Shown here: in pieces, positions 25,401 to 30,613 of the stretch
Layout of the letters: each line of letters begins with the position of its first letter
Position numbering within the stretch: position 1 is the stretch's first letter
Source of the DNA: Nitrospirota bacterium
GTDB taxonomy: Bacteria; Nitrospirota; Thermodesulfovibrionia; UBA6902; DSMQ01
Reading direction: 5' to 3'
NCBI GenBank assembly: GCA_016212185.1
Contig: JACRGX010000101.1
Coordinates: 1 to 32,936 of the forward strand
Length of the DNA: 32,936 bases
Notes under the pieces: model-generated
The model's input: only the letters and a program-made list of their open reading frames with translations
Database searches by the model: none
What the model was told of the DNA's origin: nothing
Position numbers and translations under genes: made by a program

Positions 25401-26081
25401 AATACTTCCTATTACCTTAATCATCTCCTTTGTTTTCCCCCTTATATCCTCTGCCCTGAAAATCTCTGATATCACTGCAACCCCGTATGCGCCTGCATCT
25501 TTTAATTCGCTGATTTTATTAAGTTTCACCCCGCCGATTGCAAAAACCGGAATCTTTATTTTTTTTGCAGTCTTTTTTAATGTCTCTCTGCCGAGCGGTG
25601 CGCCGTATTTTAATTTTGACGGGGTTCTGTAAACCGGCCCGAAGGTTATAAAATCAGCTCCCTTTTTTTCCGCCTCCACCGCCTCTTTTAAAGAATGCGT
25701 TGAAACCCCGATTAAAAACCGTGATGCCTGCCTGTCCGGTAGGCAGGCGTGAACAACCTTTCTTACTGCATCCGCGGGGATGCTGTTTTGAGCAAGGTGT
25801 ACTCCGTCAGCCCCGACAGCAAGCGCAATGTCCAGCCTGTCGTTGATAAAAAGTTTTGCGTTGTATTTTTTAGTCAATTCCCTCATTTTATACGTTAGTT
25901 TTAAAAGCTCCCTTGTGCCTAAATCCTTTTCCCTGAGTTGAATTGCCCTTGCCCCGCCTTTTAATGCCTCTTTAATGGCAGTGAATAGTGAACAGTGAAC
26001 CTGCCTTGTCGGCAGGCAGGCAGTGAACAGTTTTCTATCGGTAATTAAATAAAGTCTAAAATCAATTGCTTTGTTACTCAT
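25368..26081 (-). CDS. thiE: Thiamine-phosphate synthase with repeat-derived insertions and tail
   Basis: Joins HMP-PP and thiazole phosphate to give thiamine phosphate. TIM-barrel, 237 residues against about 210-220 usual. Motifs: AIQLREKDL, LFINDRLDIALAVGADGVHL, ITFGPVYRTPSK, and PVFAIGGV. Two inserts disturb the pattern, ACLPTRQVHCSLFT near residues 21-34 and ACLPDRQAS near 112-120, both encoded by CTGCCTGNCCGGTAGGCAG-like palindromes. The final ten residues and the stop codon come from PE5. No Shine-Dalgarno precedes the ATG; TJ2 begins 5 bp upstream of it. The core motifs are intact, so the enzyme is probably functional. Confidence 0.93.
   Translation of the reverse strand: MSNKAIDFRLYLITDRKLFTACLPTRQVHCSLFTAIKEALKGGARAIQLREKDLGTRELLKLTYKMRELTKKYNAKLFINDRLDIALAVGADGVHLAQNSIPADAVRKVVHACLPDRQASRFLIGVSTHSLKEAVEAEKKGADFITFGPVYRTPSKLKYGAPLGRETLKKTAKKIKIPVFAIGGVKLNKISELKDAGAYGVAVISEIFRAEDIRGKTKEMIKVIGSIHKAYLPSKSL
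25727..25755. repeat. Palindromic insertion in thiE (GCCTGCCTGTCCGGTAGGCAGGC-type)
   Basis: GCCTGCCT-GTCCGGT-AGGCAGGC hairpin, read in frame as ACLPDRQA. A sister unit with CCTGCC...GGCAGG lies at 25998-26020 of the same gene, read as ACLPTRQV. Confidence 0.85.
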
Positions 26082-26085
26082 ATAG

Positions 26086-26224
26086 GATATAACATGGTAT
26101 AGACTTTGAACGGATTTTTTTGCCGATAGTCAAATTTTTTATTAAAATATCAAGAGGCAAAAACCTCGGATGCCCCGATACTTCGGGGCAGAGAATGAGT
26201 GAAAAGTCTATACCATGTTATATC
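26086..26224. repeat. TJ2: three-stem palindromic element, copy 2 (139 bp)
   Basis: Perfect 22-bp outer arms (GATATAACATGGTATAGACT... at 26086-26107, complement 26203-26224). The second stem is TTTTTGCC/GGCAAAAA and the third CCCCGATACTTCGGGG. The core matches TJ1 and TJ3. It lies between thiG and thiE, 5 bp before the thiE start codon. Confidence 0.92.
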
Positions 26225-26274: not shown

Positions 26275-27045
26275 TTACAGCATTCCCTCAAACGGACTGC
26301 TTGCATTTGCATAGAGTTTTTTGGGCATCCTTCCTGCCTTGTACGCCAGCCTTCCTGCCATTACCGCAAACTTCATCGCTTCAGCCATTGCAACCGGGTC
26401 TTTTGCGCCTGCAATCGCTGTGTTTAAAAGCACGGCGTCGCATCCCAATTCCATTGCAATAGCAGTATCAGAGGCGGTCCCGACGCCCGCATCAACAATT
26501 ATCGGGACCTTTGCCTGCTCAAGAATAATTTTTATGTTGTACGGGTTTCTTATGCCAAGCCCTGAGCCGATGGGCGCCGCAAGAGGCATGACAGCGCTTG
26601 CGCCTGCATCCACAAGCCTCAAAGCCATTACAGGATCATCATTTACATAAGGAAGTACCATAAACCCCTCCTTTGCAAGAATCTCCGTTGCCTTGAGCGT
26701 AGCGCAGACATCAGGGAACAGGGTCTTTTCATCGCCTATGACCTCAAGCTTTATAAGGTCAGAGATTCCTGCCTCCCTTGCAAGTCTTGCATATCTTAAG
26801 GCATCTTCCATTGTATAACAGCCTGCCGTATTGGGCAGGATTTTATATTTTTTAGGGTCAATGAAATCAAGCAGGTTTCCAGATTTCCTGTCAAATATAT
26901 TCACCCTTCTTACCGCAACTGTCACGACATCTGCGCCTGCCGCTTCTATTGCCCTTTGTGTTTCTTCAAAGTTCTTATATTTTCCCGTTCCAACCCAGAG
27001 CCGGGATTTAAACTCAATGCCCCTGATTATCAATTTATCTTCCAT
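26275..27045 (-). CDS. thiG: Thiazole synthase
   Basis: Forms the thiazole phosphate carboxylate from deoxyxylulose-5-phosphate, ThiS-thiocarboxylate and dehydroglycine. 256 residues, full length. Motifs: [48 protein letters not shown] (with the Schiff-base Lys), [13 protein letters not shown], and [33 protein letters not shown] at 27045 follows AAGGAGTACAT. The preceding gene in the operon is thiS, separated by a 319-bp spacer of repeats. No insertion in this gene. Confidence 0.97.
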
Positions 27046-27364
27046 ATGTACTCCTTCTGACTTTATTACTTATATTAAGAAAAGATTCCGGACAAGTCCG
27101 ATGCGGATCTCCGCGAGGAGTCGCTACGACCGGAATGACTCGTTTTTAACTTTCAACTTTTAACTATTAACTTATAACCTGCCAGAGGCAGGCAAGCTCT
27201 TAACTCTCCCTGATGCACCGGATATTCTTCTTGAGCGGATTTTTTTGCCGATAGTCAAAAATTTTATTAAAATAACCAGAGGCAAAAACCTCTCCCGACA
27301 ATTCGGGACGATACTTCGGGGCAGAGAATGAGCGAAAGAAGAATATCCGGTGCATCTCAACCCA
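27046..27364. other. 319-bp thiS-thiG spacer: dispersed repeats and TJ3
   Basis: Contains the thiG Shine-Dalgarno and a partial GTCATTCC-type element (about 27084-27139, with CCGGACAAGTCCG and CGGATCTCCGCGAGGAGTCG). A run of TTAACTTTTAACT-like units with the palindrome CCTGCCAGAGGCAGG (27179-27193) follows, and then TJ3 (27212-27356). No gene or promoter seen. Confidence 0.78.
27212..27356. repeat. TJ3: three-stem palindromic element, copy 3 (145 bp)
   Basis: Perfect 21-bp outer arms (GATGCACCGGATATTCTTCT... and its complement ending at 27356). The core is GAGCGGATTTTTTTGCC...GGCAAAAACCTC...GATACTTCGGGGCAGAGAATGAGCG, with an added CCCGACAATTCGGG hairpin. It starts 9 bp beyond the thiS stop codon. 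Confidence 0.92.
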
Positions 27365-27565
27365 TCATCCTCCTCCTACAAAATTCACAATCTCCACCGA
27401 ATCGCCGTCACGAAGGACCTGAGCATGAAAATCGCATTTCTTGACAATCTTCATGTTCACCTCAACAGCGACCCTCGCAGACTTAATCTTCAAGCCCTGC
27501 AAAAGCCCTGAGACAGTAATATCATCCTGAAATTCTGTTATATCGCCGTTTAGTTTAAGTTTCAT
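27365..27565 (-). CDS. thiS: Sulfur carrier protein ThiS
   Basis: Ubiquitin-like carrier whose C-terminal Gly is thiocarboxylated to donate sulfur to ThiG. 66 residues, typical length. It begins MKLKLNGDITEF, contains the family pattern VAVEVNMKIV followed by LRDGDSVEIVNFVGGG, and ends in Gly-Gly-Gly where most relatives end in Gly-Gly. It lies between the hydG/thiH-like gene and thiG in the operon, flanked by PE6 upstream and TJ3 downstream. No Shine-Dalgarno is obvious before the ATG. Confidence 0.93.
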   Translation of the reverse strand: MKLKLNGDITEFQDDITVSGLLQGLKIKSARVAVEVNMKIVKKCDFHAQVLRDGDSVEIVNFVGGG

Positions 27566-27580
27566 AGAAAAATCGTAAAA

Positions 27581-27726
27581 AGCATATATGTCCGAAAAAC
27601 TTTAAGGCAACACCTTTAAGTCATGCTGCCTTTTGCAAATAGTTCAAAAGCAAATACTTAAAACTTTTTGTAGCATGACTTATAATAATAATGTTGCTTG
27701 CTTAAAGTTTTGGGGGTATGTATGCT
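27581..27726. repeat. Palindromic element PE6 (146 bp)
   Basis: Arms AGCATATATGTCC-AAAACTTTAAG and the complement ending at 27726. The inner stem TCATGCTGC faces the near-complement TAGCATGA. One half has GGCAACACCTTTAAGTCATG, the other (as complement) AGCAACATTATTATTATAAG, the same asymmetry as PE1-PE5. It fills the spacer between the hydG/thiH-like gene and thiS. Confidence 0.84.
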
Positions 27727-27749
27727 TTTTACTCTCAACCCTTAACTTA

Positions 27750-29090
27750 TTACACATGCAAATCCCTTTTCCCCTGTTCAATTAACTTAAATTTCTCAAA
27801 TATCCCGTTGCCTATTTTCTCAGCCTCCTCTTTAAGCCTTTTTGTCAAAAGCCCCCGCACATTGTCTGACGCATAATCCTCCACATATTCCTTAAGCGTA
27901 AGCAGTGCATTTTGCCGGCACAGGTTTTTAATGGTCTGCCCCTCTGCAAGCTCTCTGAATTTCTCACCGCTTCTTCCTTCCCTGTAACAGGCAGTGCAGA
28001 GGCTCGGAATAAGTCCGAGGCTTGCGATAGCGCTCATCACCTCATCAAGACTTCTTTTGTCTCCTATTTCAAACTGCGCAGTATCGCTGTCATTCAGGTA
28101 ACCCAAGGGGCTGGTCCTTGAACCTGCGGACACCTGCGATGCTCCGGTTAAAAAAAGTTCGTCCCTGAGTTTTGCAGGCTCTCTCGTAGTAATCACAATG
28201 CCTGTGTAGGGAAGAGAGAGGCGGTAAATTGCAACTATTTTTTTAAAATCATCGTCTGAAACCGTATGTTTTGTCCCTGTAAATCCCGAGCCTTCCGCAG
28301 GCTGAAGCCTCGGCGCTGAAAGCGTGTGCGGACCAAAGCCGTATTTTCTTAATAACCTGTTGCTGTGCGCAATTAAAGCCCACACATCCCATCTCCAGTC
28401 ATAAATGCCGAGAAGCACTCCCATTCCGACATCCTCAAAGCCCGCCTCTATTGCCCTGTCTATGACATTAAGCCGCCATTGATAATCGGATTTTGGGCCT
28501 GACGGATGCAGAGTCCTGTATGTTGGGATATGGTATGTCTCCTGAAAGCACTGATAAACGCCTGTGCCCGAAGCCTTGAGCCTTTTGAAATCTTCAACAC
28601 TCATGGGCGCCGCATTGACATGCAGTATCCTTATGTCTGTGTTTTTGTAGATTGCGCTGATAATTGTCTCAAGGTAGTCAATGCCTGATAATTTCGGATG
28701 CTCGCTCGTAACAAGTAATAGCCTCTTATATCCCCTGCCGGCAAGCAGGGACGCCTCTTTAAGCGCCTCCTCAATGCTCAGGTTTTTTCTTTTTGCCTTT
28801 TTGTTCCCAATTCTAAAACCGCAGTACAGGCAGTCGTTTATACATTCATTTGAAAGATATAGCGGGGCAAAAAGCACTATTCTCCTGCCATAGACTTTTT
28901 CCTTGACCCTGCGGCTAACGTCAAAGACCTCATCCCACAAATCCTTTCCGCTGAGATTTATCAGGAATGAAACATCCCTGAGGCTTAATGCGTGCAGGTT
29001 CAGGGACTTAGCAAGGATATCTCTGAGGAGATGCCTGTCATTTGCTGCTAAACTGCTTTTCGTGATGGTATGCAAACAAAAAAACCGCAT
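27750..29090 (-). CDS. Radical SAM tyrosine lyase of the ThiH/HydG family, HydG-like, in the thiamine operon
   Basis: 446 residues. The radical SAM motif C83-x3-C87-x2-C90 lies in NECINDCLYCGF. Unlike classical ThiH (about 370 residues) it has the HydG-type C-terminal extension with C365-x2-C368-x22-C391 (CTACYREGRSG...NLCRQNA), which in HydG binds the auxiliary cluster that makes the Fe(CO)(CN) synthon. Context says thiamine: a TPP riboswitch directly upstream and thiS-thiG-thiE-thiC downstream, with no hydE or hydF visible. It likely cleaves tyrosine to dehydroglycine for ThiG. The ATG at 29090 lies in the stem of the riboswitch terminator with no usable Shine-Dalgarno spacing. A downstream TTG (29075) is an alternative start. 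Confidence 0.85.
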   Translation of the reverse strand: MRFFCLHTITKSSLAANDRHLLRDILAKSLNLHALSLRDVSFLINLSGKDLWDEVFDVSRRVKEKVYGRRIVLFAPLYLSNECINDCLYCGFRIGNKKAKRKNLSIEEALKEASLLAGRGYKRLLLVTSEHPKLSGIDYLETIISAIYKNTDIRILHVNAAPMSVEDFKRLKASGTGVYQCFQETYHIPTYRTLHPSGPKSDYQWRLNVIDRAIEAGFEDVGMGVLLGIYDWRWDVWALIAHSNRLLRKYGFGPHTLSAPRLQPAEGSGFTGTKHTVSDDDFKKIVAIYRLSLPYTGIVITTREPAKLRDELFLTGASQVSAGSRTSPLGYLNDSDTAQFEIGDKRSLDEVMSAIASLGLIPSLCTACYREGRSGEKFRELAEGQTIKNLCRQNALLTLKEYVEDYASDNVRGLLTKRLKEEAEKIGNGIFEKFKLIEQGKRDLHV

Positions 29091-29122
29091 CCCCTGTCAT
29101 TGCTCATAGAAAAGAGATACGG
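29078..29122 (-). terminator. Terminator of the TPP riboswitch expression platform
   Basis: On the minus strand CCGTATCTC (29122-29114) can pair with GGGGATGCGG (29094-29085) through 9 bp including G.U pairs. Seven T residues (29084-29078) follow. The stem and U-tract overlap the first codons of the hydG/thiH-like frame, so termination would occur inside the apparent coding start. Confidence 0.65.
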
Positions 29123-29236
29123 CATCCTCCTTTTCCTCCGCCGGCATTACCCGGTTCAGGTTCAATGGGTCTCTCCCGATTTATCGGGGGACTCTCAGGC
29201 ATACCCGGCATTTATGCGGATATTCGCCTCCCCAGG
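29123..29236 (-). ncRNA. TPP riboswitch (THI element)
   Basis: Minus-strand reading shows the THI-box landmarks in order: GGGTATGCCTGAGAG (containing the CUGAGA motif), a variable hairpin CCCCCGATAAATCGGG, GAACCTGAACCGGGTAATGC, and CCGGCGGAGGAAAAAGG. The last two form the pyrophosphate/pyrimidine-binding helices. The P1 boundaries are approximate. It lies between a strong promoter and the first thiamine gene and is followed by a terminator, which implies transcriptional attenuation when thiamine pyrophosphate is abundant. Confidence 0.93.
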
Positions 29237-29245
29237 GTAGATTTA

Positions 29246-29275
29246 AGTATAATGCTGTCCGGGTAATTGTGTCAA
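29246..29275 (-). promoter_or_regulatory. Sigma-70 promoter of the thiamine operon
   Basis: Minus strand TTGACA (29275-29270), 18-bp spacer, TATACT (29251-29246). Transcription would begin near 29239, immediately before the riboswitch. The -35 box overlaps the stop codon region of mqnE. Confidence 0.82.
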
Positions 29276-30498
29276 GCAGACGCACCTGGTCTGTAAAACG
29301 AATCCCTCTCAACAGGCTGTTTGTCTGCTTTTTGGATTAAATTTATCAGCTCATCTTTGGTCATTGCACTGCCTGAGAGTGCGCCTGCTGAATGGGTAAT
29401 TCTTTCTTCAATTACAGTGCCGTCAAGGTCATCCGCGCCAAAAAGGAGCGCAAGCTGGGCAATTTTTTCGCCGAGCATTATCCAGTAAGCCTTGATGTGG
29501 GGGAAGTTATCAAGGAAGATCCTTGATACGGCAATTGTCTTAATGTCATCAATGCCTGAAGTAAAACGGCTGGGATTAGGGGTTTGGAAAGATAGGGATT
29601 GGGGTTTGGGGGTTTGGGGGTTGGAAGTCATTCTATTACTAATCCCTAATCCCGAATCCCCAACTGCCAGTTCTGTGTTCATGGGGTGAAACGCCAACGG
29701 GATAAATGCCTGAAACCCTCCGGTTTTGTCCTGAAGCTCCCTTAGTTTAAGCATGTGTTCAACACGGTGCCTGTATGTCTCACGGTGTCCGTAGAGCATT
29801 GTTGCATTTGATTTAATGCCTGCGCTGTGAGCCTTTTCCATAATCTCAAGCCATCTTCTGCCTGTGATTTTTTCAGGGCATATTTTATTTCTAACATCTG
29901 AATTGAATATCTCAGCCCCTCCGCCGGGCATGGAGCCAAGCCCTGCATTTTTTAATGCGGCAAGGACAGAGGCAAGGCTTAGACCGCTTATCTTTGAAAA
30001 ATAATCTATCTCAACCGCAGTAAAAGCCTTTATGTGAATGTCGGGAAAGTTCTTTTTAACATCTCTGAGCATTTCAAGATAAAAATCAAAAGTCCAGTCA
30101 GGATGAAGCCCGCCGACAATGTGAACCTCTGAAAGACCGTGAGACGTAAGGGGTGTAAGGCGTAAAGCGTGAGACGTGAGACGTCCTGTGATTCTCTTAT
30201 CTCCTGACTCCTGTGCTCTGAGCTTTTTAATAATCTCTTTAATCGTCAGCTCATATGCGCCTTTTTCACCTTTTGAGCGGCTGAATGCGCAGAACTTACA
30301 GCGGTTGACGCAGATGTTTGTGGGGTTTATGTGATGGTTGCGGATAAAATAGACTTTGTTCTTATTTTTTTTGCGGGCAATGTACGATGCAAGCCTGCCA
30401 ATGGTGAAGATATCATCGTTTTGAAAAAGCGTCAGGGCATCATCAGAGGTCAGACGCTTTCCGGAGAGGACTTTGGCTTCAATTTTATTAAGGGACAT
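29272..30498 (-). CDS. mqnE: Aminodeoxyfutalosine synthase with two repeat-derived insertions
   Basis: Radical SAM enzyme of the futalosine route to menaquinone. Motifs: NICVNRCKFCAFSR (C-x3-C-x2-C), VHIVGGLHPD, DIHIKAFTAVEIDYFSKISG, PGGGAEIFN, ATMLYGHRETY, GGFQAFIPLAFHP and IKAYWIMLGEKIAQLAL; the AFTAVEI pattern favours MqnE over MqnC. From ATG 30498 it has 408 residues versus about 360 usual; an upstream TTG at 30522 is less likely. The surplus sits in two loops: RITGRLTSHALRLTPLTSHG (DNA about 30136-30205) and SNPQTPKPQSLSFQTPNPS (DNA about 29575-29660). Both are encoded by degenerate tandem repeats. No Shine-Dalgarno; TATACT lies 7 nt before the ATG. Confidence 0.93.
   Translation of the reverse strand: MSLNKIEAKVLSGKRLTSDDALTLFQNDDIFTIGRLASYIARKKNKNKVYFIRNHHINPTNICVNRCKFCAFSRSKGEKGAYELTIKEIIKKLRAQESGDKRITGRLTSHALRLTPLTSHGLSEVHIVGGLHPDWTFDFYLEMLRDVKKNFPDIHIKAFTAVEIDYFSKISGLSLASVLAALKNAGLGSMPGGGAEIFNSDVRNKICPEKITGRRWLEIMEKAHSAGIKSNATMLYGHRETYRHRVEHMLKLRELQDKTGGFQAFIPLAFHPMNTELAVGDSGLGISNRMTSNPQTPKPQSLSFQTPNPSRFTSGIDDIKTIAVSRIFLDNFPHIKAYWIMLGEKIAQLALLFGADDLDGTVIEERITHSAGALSGSAMTKDELINLIQKADKQPVERDSFYRPGASA
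29575..29660. repeat. Degenerate GGGATTAGGGGTTTGG-type palindrome inside mqnE
   Basis: GGGATTAGGGGTTTGG and GGGATTGGGGTTTGGGGG units (left) face CTAATCCCTAATCCCGAATC (right). Read on the minus strand as a Pro/Gln/Ser-rich loop between conserved HPMNTELA and TSGIDDIKTIAVSRI. Confidence 0.85.
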
Positions 30499-30514
30499 AA
30501 TTAAGAGTATAAGA

Positions 30515-30613
30515 GGGTTCAAGGATTCCAGCGGTCAAGGGGTCAAGTGAAGGTAACAATCAACAATATCATTGCATTACTTGAACCCTTGAATCCTTGA
30601 CCCCTCGAACCCT
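30515..30613. repeat. TTCAAGGG-type palindrome between htpX and mqnE
   Basis: GGGTTCAAGGATTCC...GGTCAAGGGGTCAAG faces CTTGAACCCTTGAATCCTTG and CCCCTCGAACCCTG. It is built of the same octamer (TTGAACCC) that occurs four times inside ileS. It fills the whole intergenic region. Confidence 0.88.

Follow-up and report, generated by a model that had tools for sequence, protein, structure and literature searches.

The closest described relatives of the protein analyzed here are ThiH and HydG. In ThiH, the tyrosine carboxylate is contacted by Glu158, and the tyrosine-binding residues of TcThiH are T299, R306, S318 and S321 (PMC9046217, which also names Glu133 of HydG). For HydG a histidine ligand is mentioned, with no residue number given (PMC6212873). 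In the open-access papers examined, the second cluster of HydG is explained solely by CO and cyanide chemistry for the H-cluster, and a search of the open-access literature turned up no HydG subfamily described as dedicated to thiamine and bearing the cluster. We take the histidine of the GPHT motif (His265 in T. italicus HydG) to be the residue that holds the fifth iron.

The HydG-type gene and its thiamine operon

The window (the whole stretch of 32,936 nucleotides analyzed, from a Nitrospirota bacterium) carries a HydG-type gene with the following features.

27750..29090, minus strand: HydG-type tyrosine lyase (thi-type HydG), predicted for the thiazole pathway; 446 codons when read from the called ATG
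28821..28844, minus strand: radical-SAM cluster motif C83-x3-C87-x2-C90 (PF04055), invariant in the alignment
28614..28628, minus strand: barrel strand 155-159 (ILHVN; a strand in the model) with the subfamily markers I155 and H157
28326..28328, minus strand: His255, the fifth ("dangler") iron ligand by alignment, equivalent to His265 of T. italicus HydG
27918..27998, minus strand: auxiliary-cluster motif C365-x2-C368-x22-C391, kept in 56 of the 56 readable thi-type sequences

The sequence-only reading of this gene had reported a HydG-type C-x2-C-x22-C motif at Cys365, 368 and 391 (numbering that depends on the called start at 29090). The motif is exact in the open reading frame, which reads SLC(365)TAC(368)YREGRSGEKFRELAEGQTIKNLC(391), and its cysteines align with the cluster cysteines of HydG 4WCX and 4RTB; the pattern occurred anywhere in 0.15% of 20,000 shuffles of the protein's own residues. 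The numbering of the 4WCX chain is shifted by 14 residues, as checked with Glu133, and this shift equates His255 with His265. The protein passed the cut-off of the HydG model TIGR03955 (436.3 vs. 312.15 bits) and missed that of the ThiH model TIGR02351 (299.6 vs. 380 bits). The AlphaFold model (pLDDT 92) found its best match in HydG 4WCX over the whole length (TM 0.92/0.90), and the match to ThiH 7PD1 was poorer (TM 0.72/0.87). The tyrosine-pocket pattern TRRSS, made of residues common to ThiH and HydG, is present. Because the called ATG at 29090 falls within a terminator-like hairpin and model residues 1-13 have pLDDT below 50, the true start probably lies downstream of 29090, for example at the TTG at 29075.

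The surrounding features of the operon are as follows.

29246..29275, minus strand: promoter-like TTGACA-18-TATACT just ahead of the aptamer, a consensus match only (11 of 12 positions)
29115..29244, minus strand: TPP riboswitch aptamer RF00059, 55.1 bits (gathering cut-off 54.3)
29078..29123, minus strand: terminator-like hairpin and T-run, likely expression platform (arms ~29123-29112 and 29096-29085, T-run 29084-29078)
27365..27565, minus strand: thiS, sulfur carrier with GG end (TIGR01683, 68 bits, cut-off 37)
26275..27045, minus strand: thiG, thiazole synthase (PF05690, 374 bits)
25368..26081, minus strand: thiE, thiamine-phosphate synthase (TIGR00693, 188 bits)
23767..25050, minus strand: thiC, HMP-phosphate synthase (NF009895, 629 bits)

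On the minus strand the order is promoter-like site, TPP aptamer, hairpin, HydG-type gene, thiS, thiG, thiE and thiC, with mqnE upstream of the operon and ending at 29272. Both the TPP control and the downstream order thiS-thiG-thiE-thiC that had been read from the letters are borne out, the former by the aptamer match upstream on the same strand and the latter by the profile matches. Each of the 25 thiG-linked loci scanned, among them the decayed L141 and the hyd-type L236, gave an aptamer match, and scores among relatives rose to 77.6 bits, above that of the window. The hyd-linked and ThiF-only loci scanned gave no match.

The intergenic gaps of the operon (184-319 bases) are filled by related palindromic elements of ~140 bases each, at 25073-25403, 26086-26224, 27212-27356 and 27575-27732 of the window; their arms measure 30-44 nt, and one pair is 92% identical over 62 nt. 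The match of MqnE (29272-30522) to its own model falls into two parts, with insertions that keep the reading frame, and ThiE contains two inserted palindromic pieces (25725-26022) with CLPTRQ/CLPDRQ peptides. We read these insertions as mobile palindromes inside coding sequence.

The window's own genome is a draft of 103 contigs and 97.6% complete, in which genes could be missed, and closed relatives agree with it. Profile searches recovered a single HydG/ThiH gene in it, that of the window, the HydG model giving just two further matches of ~20 bits each. The proposal that a HydG-family protein stands in the place of ThiH held up. A search of this genome for a separate canonical thiH found none, and the window gene was the only ThiH candidate. 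HydF was not found above the cut-off in this genome and HydA was not found at all, and a ThiF-family protein is encoded elsewhere in it. HypE is a 65-residue remnant with no intact gene (L264:1179-1373, on the 9-kb contig C102), unlike in relatives of the same order, where full HypE is present, and [NiFe]-hydrogenase maturation by the usual route has apparently been lost here.

A thiamine-linked subfamily of HydG

Sorting by positions 157 and 178 gave 57 thi-type sequences (from Nitrospirota, Moorella relatives and others) and 134 hyd-type sequences. Fifty of the thi-type loci adjoin thiG, six adjoin a ThiS-ThiF fusion and one lies at a contig end, while the hyd-type includes one thi-linked locus, L236. 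In a full-length tree without ThiH (26 thi-type and 50 hyd-type rows), the split between the types received 100/99, and the window protein falls on the thi-type side of this branch and not with hydrogenase-linked HydG. Nor did a tree with ThiH place the gene deep within a motif-bearing ThiH, the outcome against which a tree had been proposed as a check. The statement that classical ThiH lacks the C-terminal domain is also correct for 12 canonical ThiH of other genomes, which end at ~370 residues without the C-x2-C-x22-C motif.

At positions 155/157/178 the sequences of the tree set read I (once M)-H-V in the thi-type vs. R-N-T in the hyd-type, V178 being the third marker after I155 and H157. 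Since strand 155-159 ends in the model at an Asn next to the substrate, the marker positions may line the route from one cluster to the other. The fifth-iron His, absent from ThiH, is present in 57/57 thi-type sequences, and the His, the three C-terminal cysteines and the TRRSS pocket are all kept in the 56 sequences readable to the C-terminus, so the retention of the auxiliary-cluster cysteines first noticed in the window extends to the subfamily. Positions 361-400 are as conserved as the barrel (42.5% vs. 41% of positions at >=90%).

In a scan of 246 Nitrospirota genomes, 37 passed the HydG cut-off and eight had HydF. Gene neighbourhoods and marker residues sorted the 37 into 21 thi-type genomes (15 with thiG and six with an adjoining ThiS-ThiF fusion), eight hyd-type genomes with HydF, and eight hyd-type genomes of one family, in which, on readable contigs, the gene is linked to a [NiFe]-hydrogenase operon. 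HydF occurred in 0 of 21 thi-type vs. 8 of 16 hyd-type genomes (Fisher p = 3e-4, with classes set by three marker residues), and HydA was found in none of the 21. As 29 of the 37 HydG-positive Nitrospirota are without HydF, a HydG match alone is no evidence of [FeFe]-hydrogenase. Three thi-type genomes, each a single chromosome record, gave no HydF, HydA or separate ThiH, and no second ThiH was found among the thi-type genomes tested. Four Moorella relatives (G246, G447, G358 and G256) encode HydA and HydF together with HydG of both types, and searches for ThiH found none in them; because they hold both types of HydG without ThiH, the thi-type appears to take the place of ThiH. G464 and G308 (the latter presumably the C. 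hydrogenoformans genome) pair hyd-type HydG with an ordinary ThiH, and G249, from another group, is a thi-type genome with an extra hyd-type copy.

Apparent "orphan" relatives without thiG were found adjacent to the ThiS-ThiF fusion. The HydG of 4RTB (C. hydrogenoformans), which lacks Glu133, had been considered for the thi-type and was rejected; its gene adjoins HydF, genome G308 has a separate canonical ThiH, and the close relative L211 carries hyd-type residues.

Variation was also observed within the hyd-type. The pocket reads A/C-R-R-D-S/T, not T-R-R-S-S, in 28 of the 134 sequences (L021-L023, L025, L121, L147 and others), and Gly or Asp occupies the alignment position of the second C-terminal Cys in 18 hyd-type sequences; the altered forms include Thermodesulfovibrio-like genomes with HydF and HydA. 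Judged from the residues, another substrate or another cluster ligation is possible for these proteins.

A separate observation concerns a [NiFe]-hydrogenase operon that includes HypC-HydE and HydG, found in a single family of Nitrospirota and, as a partial copy, on a contig with the label Deltaproteobacteria.

L126:823-8928, L127:817-8578, L265:6282-14262: [NiFe]-hydrogenase operon with HypC-HydE and HydG
L266:211-6414, L267:5528-13300, L268:838-9141, L270:3895-7194: [NiFe]-hydrogenase operon with HypC-HydE and HydG

It encodes Fer4_22, an NAD-binding subunit, the [NiFe] small and large subunits (sulfhydrogenase-like), a HycI protease, a cNMP-binding protein, HypC-HydE and HydG, and in two genera HypC-HydE-HydG are fused into 943 or 922 aa. 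No HydF, HydA or cut-off-level HypE was found in the Nitrospirota with this operon, even at 95-100% completeness (HypE was searched in the eight Nitrospirota genomes only). This points to HydE and HydG as possible makers of the Fe-CO-CN unit of a [NiFe]-hydrogenase, assembled on HypC; no precedent for such a route was found in an open-access literature search.

Function of the enzyme and of its auxiliary cluster

The window protein very probably makes 2-iminoacetate (dehydroglycine) for the cell, as a tyrosine lyase of the HydG family in the ThiH role, because of its gene order, its riboswitch, its radical-SAM and tyrosine-pocket residues, its complete set of auxiliary-cluster ligands, its membership of a thi-linked subfamily and the failure to find another ThiH, HydF or HydA in the genome; this confidence covers the ThiH role alone and not the role of the second cluster. 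Against the assignment, the NCBIfam HydG equivalog accepts the protein and the ThiH model rejects it, and Asn159, as in HydG, stands at the position of ThiH Glu158.

By analogy with ThiH and HydG, SAM would be cleaved at C83/C87/C90 to give a 5'-deoxyadenosyl radical, which would split tyrosine into p-cresol and dehydroglycine. Dehydroglycine would pass to ThiG and be joined to DXP and to sulfur from ThiS, and ThiE and ThiC would complete thiamine phosphate; the lyase and thiazole steps follow known ThiH chemistry (PMC9046217). A rise in TPP would then close the riboswitch and turn the operon off. The C-terminal domain would close the bottom of the barrel and bear a second [4Fe-4S] cluster, to which the fifth iron may be attached. 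We infer, as a best guess, that this cluster holds or gates dehydroglycine for hand-over to ThiG and does not serve CO and cyanide production for an acceptor.

Several readings of the auxiliary cluster were weighed. It might be structural or a leftover, the enzyme being an ordinary ThiH in function that could lose the cluster without harm, which we consider possible though not probable. G006, G016 and G025, of one Nitrospirota family, are in keeping with this, as V or A stands in place of the His in their thi-operon relative, whose C-terminus is decayed. However, the decayed lineage is placed by the tree outside the thi-type subfamily, all four ligands persist in the 56 readable members, and the 361-400 region is conserved as the barrel is. 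More doubtful, in our estimate, is an active part for the auxiliary cluster and fifth iron in thiazole formation, either in binding or handing over dehydroglycine or in other ThiG/ThiS chemistry; on this view the organometallic site of HydG would be a specialised version of one that had also, or originally, worked in thiamine synthesis. It is improbable that the thi-type enzyme, besides feeding ThiG, still makes CO and/or cyanide for another acceptor, such as a [NiFe]-hydrogenase or an unknown Fe-CO/CN site. The constancy of the three cysteines and the fifth-iron His (56/56) and the occurrence, in other genomes, of hyd-type HydG in the [NiFe]-hydrogenase operon with HypC-HydE speak for it, but HypE of the window's genome is a remnant and usual [NiFe] maturation looks lost there, the tested thi-type relatives mostly have normal HypE and so need no other cyanide source, R155, N157 and T178 of the hyd-type are replaced in all thi-type members, and TPP control suits a role in thiamine synthesis only. 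The suggested double role of one TPP-controlled enzyme, in thiamine synthesis and in [FeFe]-hydrogenase maturation, can be dismissed almost entirely here. The protein does have every catalytic and cluster ligand of HydG, but HydA and HydF were found neither in this genome nor in the thi-type genomes of its order, and the Moorella relatives with [FeFe]-hydrogenase have a second, hyd-type HydG, so that the suggestion is refuted unless HydA and HydF both fall in the missing 2-3% of the genome.

With the ThiH role as the preferred reading, thi-type bacteria, most of them without [FeFe]-hydrogenase, would use a HydG relative, extra iron-sulfur site included, for making vitamin B1. A subfamily that keeps the cluster for this purpose, mostly in cells without an H-cluster, offers a naturally occurring comparison for testing how the cluster acts on dehydroglycine, and it also bears on the origin of H-cluster assembly.

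Evolutionary direction and comparison with known systems

Recruitment of a HydG ancestor for dehydroglycine supply had been proposed for the window gene. This direction is supported for a separate case, G277 (L236, L269), in which a hyd-type HydG lies in a thiE-hydG-thiS-thiG-thiC operon with a TPP riboswitch and in which HydF and HydA were not found; for the window subfamily the trees conflict on the position of the root. Because grouping of the G277 HydG with the thi-type was rejected (AU p 2e-5), HydG-family enzymes have been linked to thiamine synthesis at least twice. The reverse direction, in which hydrogenase HydG was derived from a thiamine-pathway enzyme already bearing the auxiliary cluster, has in our judgement slightly less than an even chance. 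With 12 ThiH as outgroup, all hyd-linked HydG fell into one clade (99/98) with the thi-type genes outside, but alternatives stand in AU tests (p 0.39-0.47) and a thinned tree sets ThiH inside the hyd-type side (91/84). The rooting is unstable, because ThiH joins the thi-type branch in one tree and falls among the hyd-type sequences in another. The first tree had suggested an ancestral thi-type, a reading that the AU tests and the thinned tree did not uphold.

The decayed thi-operon relatives L141, L142 and L143 (from G016, G025 and G006, respectively), with V or A at the fifth-iron His, a decayed C-terminus and, in L141, a TPP riboswitch, show the auxiliary site either lost in nature or at an early stage.

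Among known systems, HydG (TIGR03955; 4WCX, 4RTB) resembles the window protein in whole-length fold (~42% identity), in both cysteine motifs (C-x3-C-x2-C and C-x2-C-x22-C), in the fifth-iron His and tyrosine pocket, and in having Asn for ThiH Glu158. The window protein differs from it in its thi operon and TPP riboswitch, in a genome without detected HydF or HydA, in I155/H157/V178 in place of R/N/T, and in belonging to a separate subfamily (100/99). ThiH (TIGR02351; 7PD1) shares the genomic role, the tyrosine-pocket residues and the radical-SAM barrel (TM 0.72/0.87), and the window protein has the context of a ThiH, being encoded with thiS and thiG, TPP-controlled and the sole candidate in its genome; ThiH, however, lacks the C-terminal cluster domain and the GPHT His and carries Glu158. 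The tryptophan lyase NosL (4R33) has the same type of barrel but another substrate and bond cleavage, with the C-terminal domain unmatched and 24% identity.
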